Source: Actinomycetota bacterium (GTDB taxonomy: Bacteria > Acidobacteriota > Blastocatellia > Chloracidobacteriales > Chloracidobacteriaceae). From it: DNA of 19,143 nt. A program made the position numbers and the translations under genes. Positions 6,932 to 13,984 of the stretch are shown here, piece by piece. The stretch lies in assembly GCA_013298335.1 (NCBI GenBank), contig JAAFHI010000007.1, positions 1-19,143 on the forward strand, given 5' to 3'. The notes under the pieces are model-generated. The model was not told where the DNA came from and ran no database searches. It saw nothing but the letters and a program-made list of their open reading frames with translations. Numbering within the stretch: the stretch's first letter is position 1; every line of letters starts with the position of its first letter.

Positions 6932-7996
6932 TCATCCTCCGTAGATGAGTTTCGCGAAGTAGTGATAGAGCGGCAGTCCCACAACGATGTTGAAAGGAAA
7001 GGTGATCGCCAGCGAAGCGGTGAGAAACAGCGTTGGACTCGCCTTTGGAAGCGCCACCCGACAGGCCGCCGGAGCGGCGATGTAGGATGCGCTCGCGGCC
7101 AGAACGCCGAGAATCGTCGCGCCACCAGGCGACATGCCGCACCACTTTCCGAGCAGGATGCCGATCAGGGCATGCAGAATCGGCATGATGATGCCGAATC
7201 CGACCAGAAACGGTCCGACTTTTTTGAGATCGCCCAGGCGACGCCCGGTGACCAGGCCCGCCTCAAGCAGGAAGATGGTCAGCACGCCGCGAAACGGGAC
7301 ATCGAAGAGGGGCGAAACCTGTTCCCAGCCCCGTTTGCCGCTGACGAATCCGATCGCCAGAAAACCGAGCAGGAGCAACGTGCTTTTCCCGGCGAAGAGT
7401 TCGCGAAGCACTTCCGAAAAGGGAGCATTGTCGCTGGAAACAGAGCGCTCCTCGTGGCTTATCCGGGCAATGATGATCGCGACCAGAATCGCCGGCACTT
7501 CCATGATGGTCAGCAGACTCGGCATGAATCCTTCATACCACCCGCCTGCCACGCCGGCGGCCTTCAGGAAAGGAATCGCCTCGGGGGCATCGAATTTCAT
7601 TCCTGCCGGAAGCGTGACCGCTGCCCGCAGGGTATCGTGAAACGCGAGGGCTTCGCTGAAAGTCACCGCCGATACCGATCCGAAGTGGGCGGCAATGGCG
7701 GCGGCGTTCACGACGTCGAATTTCCCGAATTTTCGCAAAAGGAAATAGCACCAGACCGGGATGCAGACCCCGAGACCGATGGCGGCCAGACCGGGACGCC
7801 AGAACTCGGCGAAGGTACTGATGGAAAGTTTGTAACCGCCCTTCATTCCGATGGCGACCAGCAGGTAGATGGTGAGCGTGGTGTAGAGTTCTTCGGGGAA
7901 TTTCAAATCGCTTTTCACCCGGGTCGCGACTACCCCGAGAATGAAGGCAAGGCACATTGGCGCGAGCAGACTCGCAAAGAGGGCGTGGTTGTCCAT
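6932..7996 (-). CDS. sbtA: SbtA-type sodium-dependent bicarbonate transporter
   Basis: A 354-residue polytopic inner-membrane protein of the SbtA family, whose characterised members import bicarbonate with sodium. Alternating hydrophobic helices run through the whole length in two similar halves. Family features include FPEELYTTLTIYLLVAIGMKGG (about 33-54) and, near the end, GGATILGVLAASASYIAAPAACRVALP and NIVVGLPLYHYFA. The start at 7996 is the first ATG. A TTG at 8020 would add eight residues, and neither has a clear ribosome binding site, so the exact start is uncertain. It lies 93 bases after the carbonic anhydrase gene and its stop overlaps the sbtB start region, indicating one operon and translational coupling to sbtB. 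Confidence 0.92.
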   Translation of the reverse strand: MDNHALFASLLAPMCLAFILGVVATRVKSDLKFPEELYTTLTIYLLVAIGMKGGYKLSISTFAEFWRPGLAAIGLGVCIPVWCYFLLRKFGKFDVVNAAAIAAHFGSVSAVTFSEALAFHDTLRAAVTLPAGMKFDAPEAIPFLKAAGVAGGWYEGFMPSLLTIMEVPAILVAIIIARISHEERSVSSDNAPFSEVLRELFAGKSTLLLLGFLAIGFVSGKRGWEQVSPLFDVPFRGVLTIFLLEAGLVTGRRLGDLKKVGPFLVGFGIIMPILHALIGILLGKWCGMSPGGATILGVLAASASYIAAPAACRVALPKASPTLFLTASLAITFPFNIVVGLPLYHYFAKLIYGG

Positions 7997-8089
7997 GGCG
8001 AATTTCGTGTCGTTCCTCAATCAAAAAGTGATGGTGGAGAACGTTCCGGAATCGCGGCGAAAACATTTCCGCCACAATTCCGGGAACGG

Positions 8090-8824
8090 CTACTCAATCA
8101 GGTTGACCTTGCCGGTTTCGAGATCGTAAACCGCACCGACGATTTTCAGTTTCCCGTCGCGAACCCGTTCCGCGAGCACGGGTTCGAGGCCCTTGAGCTT
8201 CTCGACCTGCATGCGGACGTTTTCCCGGACCGCGTTCTCGACCGGGTCGCCGGGCATGCTTTTGGCCCTCTGCGCGGCGGGTTTGATCTCGTTGATGAGC
8301 GTGACGATGTGGCCGGGGACTTTGGGCAGTTCGACGGCGGCCTTCACCGCCCCGCACTTGGTGTGGCCGAGAACCACAATGAGGTGCGCGCCGAGCACTT
8401 CCTCGGCGAATTCCATGCTGCCCCACGAGGCGTAGGTCGAAACCTGGCCGGCGGTGCGGACGATGAACAGGTCGCCGAGGCCCTGATCGAAGATGATTTC
8501 ATTCGGCACCCGCGAATCGGAGCAGCCGACGATGATGGCGAAGGGCTTCTGCCCCTTGGCGGTTTCCTTGATCCGTTCGATGTCCTGGCGTGGATGCACC
8601 GTTTTACCCGCGACGAACCGGGCGTTGCCATCGACCAGCGCTTTGAGGGCGGCGGCCGGGTCGGCCTGGAGCGCCTCGTTGCTCGGCTGGTGGGGCGGGG
8701 GGGGAGTTTGATCCGCGGCGCGGCCAGGCTGCCCCGCGAGGGGGAGGCACAACAGACCGATCAGACCGAGAAAGATGAGGGGGCGGACACACGTCCGGCG
8801 AACGCTGGCAATCGAAAAGGCCAT
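8090..8824 (-). CDS. Exported beta-class carbonic anhydrase
   Basis: A 244-residue beta-carbonic anhydrase, which interconverts carbon dioxide and bicarbonate. Zinc ligands C101, H154 and C157 are in VGCSDSRVPNEIIFDQ and VLGHTKCGAVKAA. The D103-R105 pair of the active site is intact, and RTAGQVSTYASWGSMEFAEEVLGAHLIVVLGH is typical. Residues 1-37 form an export signal: basic VRRTCVRP, hydrophobic LIFLGLIGLLCLPLAG, then GRA before a Pro-rich linker. The enzyme is therefore predicted to be periplasmic. It is first in an operon with sbtA and sbtB, so it probably makes bicarbonate for SbtA or balances pools at the membrane. GGAG lies about 10 bases before the ATG. Confidence 0.93.
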   Translation of the reverse strand: MAFSIASVRRTCVRPLIFLGLIGLLCLPLAGQPGRAADQTPPPPHQPSNEALQADPAAALKALVDGNARFVAGKTVHPRQDIERIKETAKGQKPFAIIVGCSDSRVPNEIIFDQGLGDLFIVRTAGQVSTYASWGSMEFAEEVLGAHLIVVLGHTKCGAVKAAVELPKVPGHIVTLINEIKPAAQRAKSMPGDPVENAVRENVRMQVEKLKGLEPVLAERVRDGKLKIVGAVYDLETGKVNLIE

Positions 8825-9070: not shown

Positions 9071-10702
9071 GTGTCTGGAAAAACCAAAGCTCCCGCATCG
9101 CGTCGCATCGCCGCCATCGACATCGGGTCGAACTCGCTTCACCTGATCGTCGCCGAGGCGCGCCCAGGCCAACGCTTCCACATCGTCGAGCGCGAAAAGG
9201 AAATGGTTCGCCTCGCTGCCGGAACGCTCCACACCCACCACATCTCGCCCTCCCGGATGGACGCCGCCATCGCCACCCTGCGCCGGTTCGCCGCGCTCGC
9301 ACAGGCGCTCGACGCGTCGCCGATCATCGTGACCGCCACGAGCGCGGTCCGCGAAGCCTGGAATCGCGAGGTGTTTCTGCGCCGGGTGGAACGCGAGACC
9401 GGACTCCAGATCGAAATCCTGCCCGGCGTCGAGGAAGCCCGCCTGATTGCCCTGGCGGTCAACGAAGTAACCGATTTCAAGGGGGAGCGGGCGCTCATCA
9501 TCGACATCGGCGGCGGCAGCACCGAGTTCATCCTGACGCGGGGCGAAACGCCCGACTATCTCACTTCGGTCAAGCTCGGGGCGGTCCGGCTGCACGAACA
9601 GTTCCTGAAGAAAAACGATCCGCCGACCAAATCCGACGCTGAGGCGCTGACGACCTACGTCCGGAGCGGTCTGGTGCGGACGGTCCGTGAAATCAAGGCC
9701 TCCGGAAAGTTCCGCCGGGTCATCGGAACGTCAGGGTCCATCCTCGGGCTGGCCGCCGCTTTACAGCCGTTTTCAGGGGATTCCGACGGCAAAACGCCTC
9801 CCAGGGCGGTTTACGGAGAAAAACTCTCCCTGAAGGCTTTGGAACCACTCAACCGCCAGCTCCAGCGGATGTCGCTCAAGGAAAGACGCAAGGCCCCCGG
9901 CGTGGACGGCCGCCGGGCCGACATCATCGTCGCGGGCGGCCTGCTGCTCGAAACGATCCTGCGGGAACTCGACATCGCCGAGCTGACGACCTGCGACTGG
10001 TCGCTGCGGGAGGGAATGATCCTGAACTACCTGCACGAGCACGCCCCGGAGATGCTCGCGGCCAAGGCGACCGAGGATGCCGCGGCGGGCGTCCGGATGC
10101 GAAGCATTCTGTCGGTCGCCCGGCGGTACGACTACGAGGCGGTCCATTCCCACCACACGGCCAAACTCGCGGGCCGCATCTTCGACGGGACGAAAGCGCT
10201 CCACGGCCTCGGGGCGGTCGAGCGCGAGTGGCTGGAATACGCCGCGCTGCTCCACGACATCGGGTACCACATCTCGCACGGCAGCCACCACAAACACGGG
10301 ATGTACCTCATCCGCCACGCCGATCTGCCCGGCTTCCACACCGAGGAAGTCGCGGTCATCGCCAACCTCGTCCGCTACCACCGGGGATCGCTGCCGAAAC
10401 GCAAGCACGAGGATTTCGTCCGGCTCTCGCCTTCCCGCCAGGCAACGGTCCTGAAGCTCACCGCCATCCTGCGCCTCGCCGATGCCTTCGACCGGCGGCA
10501 TCAGGGGGTCGTGGACGATCTCGACGTCCGGCTGCGCGGCAAGCGGATGACGGTCACGCCGCTGACCGCGAAACCCTGCGACCTCGAAGTCTGGTGCGCG
10601 GCGCGGGCGGCGGAAACGTTCCAGGGCATTTTTCCGAATGTCGAAGTCGAACTCCGCAAACCGTCCGCCGGAGGCGCGTCAGCCACCGCCACCGGGCGCT
10701 GA
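9071..10702 (+). CDS. Ppx/GppA phosphatase with C-terminal HD domain
   Basis: A 543-residue exopolyphosphatase / pppGpp phosphatase of the ASKHA fold. The first phosphate loop is AAIDIGSNSLHLIVAE (D17, S20, N21), followed by TATSAVREAWN (88-98). The catalytic glutamate region is LPGVEEARLIALAV (E121 or E122), and the second glycine loop is LIIDIGGGSTEF (D145). Residues about 345-510 are an HD-type metal phosphohydrolase domain with H362, H395-D396, H406-H409 and H437, as in the long Ppx/GppA form. The family removes terminal phosphates from polyphosphate or pppGpp in the cytoplasm; which one is preferred cannot be told. The start is GTG at 9071, the first codon before the conserved strand, with only a weak ribosome binding site. 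The gene is divergent from the carbonic anhydrase operon and convergent with dnaA across the origin-like region. Confidence 0.93.
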   Translation: MSGKTKAPASRRIAAIDIGSNSLHLIVAEARPGQRFHIVEREKEMVRLAAGTLHTHHISPSRMDAAIATLRRFAALAQALDASPIIVTATSAVREAWNREVFLRRVERETGLQIEILPGVEEARLIALAVNEVTDFKGERALIIDIGGGSTEFILTRGETPDYLTSVKLGAVRLHEQFLKKNDPPTKSDAEALTTYVRSGLVRTVREIKASGKFRRVIGTSGSILGLAAALQPFSGDSDGKTPPRAVYGEKLSLKALEPLNRQLQRMSLKERRKAPGVDGRRADIIVAGGLLLETILRELDIAELTTCDWSLREGMILNYLHEHAPEMLAAKATEDAAAGVRMRSILSVARRYDYEAVHSHHTAKLAGRIFDGTKALHGLGAVEREWLEYAALLHDIGYHISHGSHHKHGMYLIRHADLPGFHTEEVAVIANLVRYHRGSLPKRKHEDFVRLSPSRQATVLKLTAILRLADAFDRRHQGVVDDLDVRLRGKRMTVTPLTAKPCDLEVWCAARAAETFQGIFPNVEVELRKPSAGGASATATGR

Positions 10703-10789
10703 AAAGCGGTCCCTCAAGCAGTTTCTCAACTTCACCGAAAACGCCCTTTTACTATTGTTTCTAGAACAGAAATTTTCATTCATGGGTCC

Positions 10790-10825
10790 TAGTAGTAGTA
10801 ATAGGGCCTGTGGAAATGTGGAAAA
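10790..10825 (-). promoter_or_regulatory. Basal origin unwinding element: DnaA boxes, GC cluster, DnaA-trios
   Basis: Read on the minus strand: TTTTCCACA (10817-10825) abuts ATTTCCACA (10809-10817, sharing one base), then GGCC (10805-10808), then CTATTACTACTACTA (10790-10804), i.e. five DnaA-trios. In Bacillus subtilis this order (box, GC-rich spacer, trios 3'-GAT-5') loads DnaA onto one strand and opens the duplex. Opening here would proceed toward lower coordinates, into the A/T-richer stretch near 10745-10785. Confidence 0.8.
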
Positions 10826-10900
10826 CTTTTTGCAAGTTACTGCTTCCAAAAGGTTTATGCCTGAGAAAATCCTGTGCAAAAAGCTGTGGAAAAAAACTGG

Positions 10901-10965
10901 CCCGCTGTGGAACCTGTGGAACCTTTGACACATGGCCGAAAGGGTTCCACAGGTTCCACAGCGGG
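10901..10965. repeat. Long perfect inverted repeat inside the origin region
   Basis: The 23-base arm 10901-10923 (CCCGCTGTGG...GGAACC) is perfectly complementary to 10943-10965. Three more pairs (TTT 10924-10926 with AAA 10939-10941) continue past a single bulged G, leaving a 12-base loop. Each arm is two CTGTGGAAC units, i.e. eroded DnaA boxes. It separates the convergent ppx/gppA and dnaA genes and could also act as a two-way transcription barrier, though no T run follows. Confidence 0.85.
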
Positions 10966-11009
10966 TCCACAGGGAGTTTTCCACAGATCTGTGGAAAACC
11001 TGTGTAAAT

Positions 11010-12392
11010 CTATTTTAATGAACTAATTAGGTTATTGATGAGCCTGTGGAAATCGCCCTGGGTGCCGTAGAGCCCGGCGATCTTCTCGCAACTGTGCATG
11101 ACGGTCGTGTGGTGCTTGTTTCCGAAGTTCCGACCGATCTCGGGAAGGCTGTGCGGGGTCAGTTGCTTGCACAGATACATGGCCACCTGGCGGGGGACGG
11201 CGATGTTGCGCGAGTTGTTTTTCGACTTGAGGTCGTTCGGGCGCAGGCCGTAGTGGTCGGCCACGACGCGCTGGATCATCTCGATCGTGATGGCCCGTTC
11301 CTCTTCCTCGATATTGAGGACTTCCTTGCAGAGTTCGATGTCGATCGGGCGCTTCTTGAGCGAGGCGTAGGCCACCAGCCGGATCAGCGAGCCTTCCAGT
11401 TCGCGGATGTTCGACTTGATCTTTCCGGCGATGAACAGCGCGACGTTGTCGTTGAGGTCGATCTTTTCGATGTCGGCCTTGCGCTTGAGAATCGCGACCT
11501 TGGTTTCGAGGTCGGGCGGCTGGAGGTCGGCGATGAGGCCCCATTCGAACCGCGAGTGGAGGCGTTCTTCCAGGGTCGGAATCTCGCGCGGCGGGCAGTC
11601 GCTCGAAATGACGATCTGCTTCTGGGCGTCGTAGAGCGCGTTGAACGTGTGGAAGAACTCTTCCTGCGTCCGTTCCTTCCCGGCGATGAACTGGATGTCG
11701 TCGATCATCAGCACGTCGATTCCGCGGTACTTTTCGCGAAAGGCCTGGGCCTTGTCGTACCGGATCGCGTTGATGAGTTCATTCATGAACTTTTCCGACG
11801 AAATGTAGACGAGCCGCGTATGCCGGTCGCGCCCGCGCACGGCGTGTCCGATGGCGTGCATGAGGTGCGTCTTGCCGAGTCCCACCCCGCCGTAGACGAA
11901 GAGCGGGTTGTAGGTGCGCGACGGCGATTCCGCGACCGCGAGCGAGGCGGCGTGGGCAAACTGGTTGCACGAGCCGACGACGAAGGTATCGAAGGTGTAT
12001 TTCGGGTTGAGCGGCAGTTCGAGGGGTTCGATATCGACGATCCGGGCCGCCGGAATGTTTTCCGTTTCGGCCAGCGAGAGCGAAAGCTGTCCGTTGCCGA
12101 TGAATGCCGCGCCCTTTTCGGGCGGCATGGAGTGTTCGTCAGCCGCTTCGCCGCCGGTCACGACAAAATCAACCCGGTGGCCGTCGAGACCGACCGCGCC
12201 GAGGGATTCTTCGAGAATGTCGCCGTAACTTTCCGAAATCCAGTTTTTGTAACTGACCGTCGGAACGCCGAAAAAAATCGTGCCGTCGTGCGCGGAGTGA
12301 AGCGTGACCGGCCTGAACCACGTGTTGAAGCTCTCGTGGTTGAGCCGTTTTTCGATCTCCTGCATCAGGGCTGACCACTTGTCTGCATCCAT
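11010..12392 (-). CDS. dnaA: Chromosomal replication initiator DnaA
   Basis: A 460-residue DnaA, normal length. Domain I (about 1-80) carries [23 protein letters not shown]. Domain II is a short linker (about 80-125). Domain III is the AAA+ ATPase: Walker [10 protein letters not shown] (168-176), Walker B VLMIDD (227-232) and the arginine-finger segment HSRFEWG (R281). Domain IV (about 376-460) binds DnaA boxes, with [14 protein letters not shown] and the signature [11 protein letters not shown] (424-434). The start at 12392 is chosen because AAGGGG lies just upstream and domain I begins there. The open frame continues to 12479, but that stretch translates DnaA boxes and the promoter. No dnaN, recF or gyrB follows; the 3' neighbour is the origin region. 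Confidence 0.97.
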
Positions 12393-12439: not shown

Positions 12440-12536
12440 ATTCTAAAGCGGAAAATAAGTTTTTCCACAACTTTTCCACAGGAATCGGGAAGGGTTGTGG
12501 AAATCTTGAGCAGTATCTCTAAGTGACTGTGAATAA
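12440..12536 (-). promoter_or_regulatory. dnaA promoter region with DnaA boxes
   Basis: Forward TTTTCCACA boxes lie at 12461-12469 and 12472-12480. Reverse boxes lie at 12496-12504 (TGTGGAAAT) and 12528-12536 (TGTGAATAA, consensus TTATTCACA). A good minus-strand -10 sequence TAGAAT is at 12440-12445, and its -35 area falls on the paired boxes, suggesting that DnaA represses its own gene. This also forms an upstream half of a bipartite origin. The remaining DNA to the VWFA start at 12730 holds an isolated AAGGAG-ATG (12597) opening a frame that continues into the VWFA gene out of phase. I see no second gene there. Confidence 0.65.
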
Positions 12537-13786: not shown

Positions 13787-13984
13787 TGTGAATAATCCCG
13801 AATCAGGGTTGTGGAAAACTTGTGGAAAACTTGTGGAAAATGAAAACGGAGACATCCAGGCCGATGTCTCCGTTTTTGTTGGAAAGCAAGAACAGGCTTC
13901 AAAAACCGTATGATTCACCGATTTCCTCAAGTAGTTTCAAGGAGAGGAAAATTTCCACAAGGGCTGTGGATAACTTGTGGAAAA
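13787..13984. promoter_or_regulatory. Second DnaA-box cluster, downstream of the VWFA gene
   Basis: Seven boxes lie within 198 bases: 13787-13795 (TGTGAATAA), three TGTGGAAAA at 13810-13818, 13821-13829 and 13832-13840, ATTTCCACA at 13951-13959, TGTGGATAA at 13965-13973 (exact TTATCCACA) and TGTGGAAAA at 13976-13984. A terminator sits in the middle. The three middle boxes are spaced exactly 11 bp, one helical turn. No DnaA-trio is seen. It may be an extra origin part or a DnaA-titrating site. Confidence 0.8.
13843..13877. terminator. Bidirectional rho-independent terminator
   Basis: AAAACGGAGACATC (13843-13856) and GATGTCTCCGTTTT (13863-13876) form a perfect 14-bp stem with a 6-base loop, flanked by A and T runs so it works in both directions. 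It serves the VWFA gene and possibly the convergent TetR gene. Confidence 0.92.

Follow-up and report, generated by a model that had tools for sequence, protein, structure and literature searches.

A basal unwinding system past dnaA very probably marks the chromosome origin of an uncultured acidobacterium and is faced by a conserved, mirrored trio array

Where does an uncultured acidobacterium begin to copy its chromosome, and how might both DNA strands at that place be made ready for a helicase? For Bacillus subtilis, the portion of PMC10201434 cited here ascribes the placement of one helicase to the DnaA filament on the trio strand of the origin and has DnaD mark the opposite strand, where it sits on the sequence complementary to the trios. 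According to the same portion, protein contacts alone do not account for a second helicase reaching a given strand in the right geometry, and placement of the second helicase on the complementary strand is named there, and in a passage of PMC10721633, as a question still to be answered. We analyzed a stretch of 19,143 nucleotides, referred to below as the window, in which a first-pass annotation had reported a textbook DnaA-trio element of the B. subtilis type, the basal unwinding system (BUS), and had taken it to locate oriC. The features of the window that bear on these questions are collected in Table 1.

Read along the minus strand from 10825 to 10790, the site consists of TTTTCCACA, TTTCCACA, GGCC and CTA TTA CTA CTA CTA, which is 9 + 8 + 4 + 15 = 36 bases. 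The order that had been claimed, two abutting DnaA boxes followed by GGCC and five trios, is present with no extra bases, although the description of the boxes can be refined: the second box abuts the first as an 8-mer, and as the 9-mer ATTTCCACA it has one A (base 10817) in common with it. The placement past the dnaA stop codon (11010-11012) likewise stands, at a counted distance of 184 bases from the first box instead of the 185 that had been given. When the window's draft assembly (5,114,314 bases in 1093 contigs) was searched for the 36-mer at up to three mismatches, this was the only site found, and the backwards control was found nowhere.

We compared the site with the published description of a BUS, which in the part of PMC8287927 used here places a box with at most two mismatches to TTATCCACA at 0-16 bp from the trios and allows a second box up to four mismatches. 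At this locus TTTTCCACA has one mismatch and ATTTCCACA has two, and four bases separate the second box from the trios. By the BUS rule the plus strand would be the trio strand bound by DnaA; it reads 3'-GAT AAT GAT GAT GAT-5', five trios of permitted type where the rule asks for at least three NAN trios. The initiator encoded in the window matches the B. subtilis DnaA chain 8btg with 456 bits, and in the alignment the B. subtilis residues I190, I193 and R264 correspond to its I207, I210 and R281, so that both the I190 associated with ssDNA and the arginine finger R264 are retained. DnaA boxes of the form TNTCCACA occur 16 times in the window, compared with 1.15 ± 1.18 times in shuffled sequence (none of 200 shuffles reaches 16), and they include the cluster beside dnaA by which an oriC is recognized. 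All but one of the 16 fall into three clusters, at 10809-11052, 12462-12503 and 13810-13983, the last of these being a putative part of the origin.

Table 1. Positions of origin-related features in the window
Feature	Position	Strand	Basis or remark
ppx/gppA-like gene, convergent with dnaA	9071..10702	+	at dnaN's place in relatives L007, L010, L011
Mirrored trio array CTT TTA CTA TTG TTT CTA	10746..10763	+	trio-run score; 0/300 own shuffles as good
Gap between arrays, 26 bases, presumed unwinding element	10764..10789		about 63% AT; window 40.5% AT
Five forward trios CTA TTA CTA CTA CTA	10790..10804	-	sequence, uniqueness, conservation
GC-rich spacer GGCC	10805..10808	-	same place in most class members
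Second, abutting DnaA box TTTCCACA (8-mer)	10809..10816	-	sequence and box count
First DnaA box TTTTCCACA	10817..10825	-	sequence and box count
More DnaA boxes, both orientations, between dnaA and BUS	10877..11007		includes the 26-nt inverted repeat
26-nt inverted repeat	10901-10926 / 10940-10965		lies among boxes 10877..11007
dnaA, initiator, 460 aa	11010..12392	-	Pfam, NCBIfam TIGR00362, 8btg match
Three DnaA boxes upstream of dnaA	12462..12503		box scan
Third cluster, six DnaA boxes, several spaced 11 bp	13810..13983		box scan

Evidence from GC skew comes from a sampled member of the window's family, G123, a near-complete genome whose 2.68-Mb contig begins at dnaA; the window's own assembly is divided among the contigs counted above. 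We sampled 21 pieces of 20 kb from the G123 contig. Skew lies between 0.002 and 0.088 in all 11 pieces as far as 1.36 Mb; of the ten pieces from 1.47 Mb on, nine have a negative skew, the exception being at 1.88 Mb. Judged by these per-piece signs, the sampled skew switches sign at dnaA and near 1.4 Mb.

The comparison with related genomes that the first-pass annotation had proposed found the order kept. A 24-mer probe made of the proximal box, the spacer and four trios, with S and Y allowed and up to three mismatches, matched 48 of 396 genomes of the phylum, and its backwards control matched 11. By table count, 30 of the matching genomes are among the 47 of the window's class and 18 among the 349 others, and some of the matches lie away from dnaA (for example seven places in G283 and one in G173). 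For a search anchored on dnaA, 118 class genomes were examined, of which 111 gave a dnaA match and 105 were read past the gene. A combined score for box, spacer and trios reached at least 18 past dnaA in 97 of the 105 and at least 19.5 in 89, compared with 1.9% and none, respectively, of 525 shuffled regions. We also scanned genome contigs across phyla for exact 24-mer matches and obtained 59 loci, belonging to Acidobacteriota, Bacillota, Cyanobacteria, Streptomyces and Kitasatospora, with one each from Saccharibacteria, Bacteriovorax and Eisenbacteria. The stretches fetched around 48 of these loci contain dnaA and the other 11 gave no dnaA match; in every one of the 48, site and dnaA share a strand and the site follows the 3' end of the gene at a distance of 101-790 bases. 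This placement agrees with a published survey which, in the portion cited, reports BUS-like elements in 1755 of 2070 origins (PMC8287927).

The order of the elements, their position past dnaA and their conservation in relatives all agree with a B. subtilis-type BUS, and together with the sampled skew of G123 they support the proposal that it lies at oriC. We therefore hold with high confidence that the 36-bp site is the known BUS at oriC; the forward site is supported as a further example of that system, and copying of the chromosome of this uncultured acidobacterium very probably starts there. The direction of strand opening would follow from the known polarity of the BUS. The site places oriC in a phylum for which our literature search found no dedicated origin study.

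A second element lies past the forward trios, at 10746-10763; the first-pass annotation had ended at 10790. When 80 BUS-anchored loci were printed, many Acidobacteriota showed a TAGTA-like sequence at about 20-40 bases beyond the trios. For 88 class genomes from 37 genera (the 105 less 16 with a low BUS score and one dropped for length), we counted every 5- and 6-mer within 60 bases beyond the fifth trio, using a genus weighting that lessens shared ancestry without removing it, and compared the counts with 200 dinucleotide shuffles. The words that rank highest include TAGTA, TAGTAA, GTAAAA and AAAAGG, whose counts no shuffle reaches, and CCATG and ATATAT are likewise high. On the opposite strand the TAGTA-type words read GC followed by CTT TTA CTA, that is, as trios in phase, and the DnaA-type trio strand of such a mirrored array would be the minus strand.

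A trio-run score for the mirrored orientation gave 8.44 over the 88 genomes, compared with 4.92 (sd 0.21) in shuffles, of which the largest of 300 gave 5.55. The same score was 3.63 in the orientation of the forward trios (3.34 in shuffles, sd 0.15), and 3.1 and 3.8 on reversed and complemented sequence. Since the score weights had been set after examples were seen, we also used the NAN rule as published and a set of held-out genomes, and since the mirrored pattern had first been noticed by eye, the test was repeated on those held-out genomes. With only the NAN rule applied, the mirrored run has a value of 5.43, compared with 3.79 in shuffles (0/300 as high), and the same-orientation run is 3.41, compared with 3.10 (4/300); the complement is unusable as a control here because the rule is symmetric. 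The held-out set comprised 49 genomes from 21 genera, whose stretches were first fetched after the pattern had been noticed, and it gave a mirrored score of 8.19 against 5.12 (sd 0.27; 0/300) and a same-orientation score of 3.59 against 3.45 (75/300). In-phase NAN triplets beyond chance are thus found in the mirrored array both class-wide and in the held-out genomes, with no shuffle of 300 equaling them. When the BUS score cut was omitted (104 genomes), the mirrored score was 8.26 against 4.90 (0/300), and the same-orientation score was also raised (0/300), partly because true forward trios enter the tested stretch where the site is misplaced. At the level of sequence, the existence, conservation, phase and orientation of the mirrored array are established, and we are confident that it is a real conserved element.

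The phase of the array could be examined by anchoring on TTACTA, which occurs in 41 of the 88 genomes (18 of 37 genera). At the non-anchor triplets the frequency of a middle T is 0.87 ahead of the anchor; behind it the values are 0.73, 0.83, 0.72 and 0.67 and then drop to 0.05, indicating that the mirrored array is about seven triplets long. Among the 45 genomes that score at least 6.5, the gap between the two arrays has a median of 25 bases (10-90%: 19-29), and in the window the mirrored array sits 26 bases from the last forward trio. The 25 bases past the fifth trio have a mean AT content of 80% in the class genomes, compared with 57% further on.

Tested genome by genome at p ≤ 0.05, the mirrored array is detected in 43 of 88 class genomes and a same-orientation array in 12 of 88. 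By family the mirrored count is 6/10 in f1, 1/3 in f2, 4/7 in f3, 29/52 in f4 and 3/6 in f7, with none in f5 (0/3), f6 (0/1) or f81 (0/6), and 26 of the 37 genera have at least one genome with a mirrored score of at least 6.5. The array is rare outside the class: of 39 genomes from other classes in which the region beyond dnaA was read, six reach a BUS score of 19.5 (L254, L256, L263, L265, L271 and L278), and a mirrored score above 6.5 is found in two of these six (L263 and L271) and, at lower BUS scores, in L258 and L268. A group test on the 59 cross-phylum loci, one of which was too short, used 500 shuffles per group. The mirrored score exceeded all 500 in Acidobacteriota (n = 14), in Cyanobacteria (n = 10, mainly through L074 and L083) and in Selenomonas ruminantium (n = 9), a single species whose run resembles a purine-rich leader. 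The result was unclear or negative in Bacilli (54/500 shuffles as good), other Bacillota (477/500) and Streptomyces with Kitasatospora (31/500); the three single records gave 17/500, and in the other Bacillota it is the same orientation that is raised (1/500). In the cyanobacterial loci L074 and L083, a run of four CTA trios in forward orientation is separated by 13-17 bases from the five or six mirrored trios that face it, an arrangement more symmetric than the Acidobacteriota form.

We propose that DnaA at the boxes 10809-10825 would be passed onto the plus-strand trios at 10790-10804 and would open the DNA toward lower coordinates, as in B. subtilis. This first filament would open the gap and expose the mirrored array 10746-10763 on the minus strand, which DnaA could then engage with opposite polarity. 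With DnaA on both strands, each strand would be able to receive one helicase. We infer DnaA binding to either array at this locus, the direction of opening and the helicase-loading role of the mirrored array; the overall explanation, a BUS plus a second array read by DnaA, seems to us reasonably probable. Against it count the detection of the mirrored array in fewer than half of the class genomes when each is taken singly, its rarity outside the class, the slight rise of the same-orientation run in places and the scarcity of a mirrored box hexamer that could seed DnaA there. Of its parts, we lean slightly toward the view that the mirrored array is read by DnaA, and we suggest only tentatively that it may guide the second helicase.

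Alternatively, DnaA might use the BUS only, and the downstream TAGTAAAAGG element might be bound in single-stranded form by DciA, SSB or another protein, in a DnaD-like manner. A T at every third base also produces TnnT repeats, which are read by DnaD in B. subtilis (PMC10201434, in the part cited). DciA is encoded in the window's genome (57.6 bits), and 86 of the 88 class genomes are without a mirrored DnaA box: no box of matching orientation lies beside the array in the window, and among the 88 the hexamer is found near it in two (G418 and G346). The array nevertheless keeps DnaA-trio phase over about seven triplets, and one genome, G280, carries a complete mirrored box with trios, both of which count against another protein as the reader, as does the fact that we know of no sequence preference of DciA. 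We consider this alternative unlikely.

Reading of the mirrored array by DnaA raises the possibility, which we put forward with reserve, that Blastocatellia and perhaps some Cyanobacteria have a two-sided opener, in which the unwinding region lies between two DnaA-trio arrays that face each other, one on each strand. In that case DnaA itself would mark both strands and set the geometry for two opposed helicases without DnaD, and the full form would be that of G280, where a complete BUS stands on either side and faces the other. Between dnaA and dnaN, this member of family f31 carries a pair of boxes with four TTA trios, then 22 AT-rich bases and then a mirrored BUS of four mirrored trios and a mirrored TTTTCCACA box, giving two facing BUS units. 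Facing units as a trait of family f31 were rejected, as one of its ten genomes has them and one other is cut by a contig end.

It is improbable, in our judgment, that the mirrored element has no trio role and has been kept by descent as AT-rich DNA for unwinding, or as a promoter or leader of dnaN. Such a history would fit the relatedness of the class members, the resemblance of AAAAGG to a purine-rich leader and the AT-rich DNA ahead of dnaN in L007, L010 and L011, class members in which dnaN (TIGR00663) follows the BUS. In the window's family, however, a convergent ppx follows the BUS in nine of ten genomes (the window and eight by tblastn), and TAGTA is kept in eight of the ten. This persistence where ppx replaces dnaN indicates that the element is unlikely to belong to dnaN, and the reading as a dnaN promoter or leader is unlikely for the same reason, the element remaining where dnaN is no neighbor. 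A scan for a sigma-70-like promoter found none within 10650-11050, and dinucleotide shuffles, which preserve composition, yet reach the mirrored score in 0 of 300 cases.

The forward and mirrored arrays are of complementary types, (CTA)n and (TAG)n, and might be conserved as the arms of a hairpin or cruciform. We regard this as very improbable and rejected it on the pairing data, in which a genome's own arms pair no better than re-dealt ones: own arms form 9.97 of 15 pairs, compared with 9.99 for arms taken from other genera (305/500 dealings as good), and in the 20 genera whose forward array is other than five CTA, 358 of 500 dealings are as good. That the 36-bp match itself is a chance assembly of common words and no origin element has next to no probability, since, short and simple as box and trio motifs are, the 36-mer is unique in the draft, the boxes far exceed expectation and the conservation past dnaA in the class contradicts it.

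How does a BUS faced by a DnaA-read array compare with known systems? The box pair, the short GC-rich spacer, the trios running in one direction and the place past dnaA are all shared with the BUS of B. subtilis, as described in parts of PMC6669920, PMC8287927 and PMC10721633; the B. subtilis trio stretch is given as CTACTATTACTTCTACTA (PMC10201434, in the part cited). The present locus and those of many relatives differ in having a second trio array that faces the first on the other strand across about 25 bases, and the window's family differs in having ppx, not dnaN, next. The DnaD recognition element (DRE) of B. subtilis is also a three-base repeat for the strand left free of the first DnaA filament and, as far as the cited part of PMC10201434 describes it, has been proposed to place the second helicase. 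DnaD reads the DRE, which is there complementary to the forward trios, whereas the mirrored array occupies different DNA, located further on. The window's genome, which is 90.5% complete, has no match to the DnaB_2/DnaD domain PF07261, for which the B. subtilis and Lactococcus lactis controls do match. The eTrio of Thermotoga maritima is similar in consisting of extra TAG triplets away from the box-adjacent trios, and it is needed for opening; in the cited part of PMC10316083, however, it appears to be on the same strand as the T. maritima trios and not mirrored. We found no description of mirrored trios in the open-access literature searched.

DnaD and the DRE answer the second-helicase question for Firmicutes-type bacteria only. 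A conserved mirrored array in a lineage with DciA provides a concrete sequence with which to ask whether DnaA marks both strands, and it may reveal how the second copying machine is placed.

The family member G123 has a second contig of 1.01 Mb, along which the sampled skew (L146, L163) switches close to the ends and near 0.35 Mb. In the outermost 6 kb at either end of this contig we found no DnaA-box-like site, no T[TG][ATG]TCCACA and no run of four trios. A second DnaA for this chromosome was considered and dismissed, the extra dnaA matches in G123, G165 and G096 being weak AAA+ matches on contig 1. In the Chloracidobacterium-like G123 and G165 (L002 and L003), the third forward trio is GGA (CTA CTA GGA CTA CTA), a natural break in the array.

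Several further observations concern the surroundings of dnaA. The inverted repeat at 10901-10965 is 96% complementary, contains four DnaA boxes and is followed by a T run on the minus strand, just past dnaA; relatives keep facing box pairs where the window has this repeat. It might terminate dnaA transcription besides binding DnaA, and terminator prediction there returned one short terminator-like site, with 0.7 expected. The third box cluster (13810-13983) sits between a vWA-domain gene and a tetR-like gene, and clusters of three boxes lie at a comparable distance upstream of dnaA in L102 and L076. Inside the window's third cluster, at 13843-13876, is an inverted repeat whose 14-nt arms match perfectly around a 6-nt loop and which ends in TTTT, perhaps the terminator of the vWA gene. 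Also near the origin, on the minus strand, a gene for an Sbt_1-type sodium-dependent bicarbonate transporter (6932-8020) lies beside a carbonic anhydrase gene (8090-8824).
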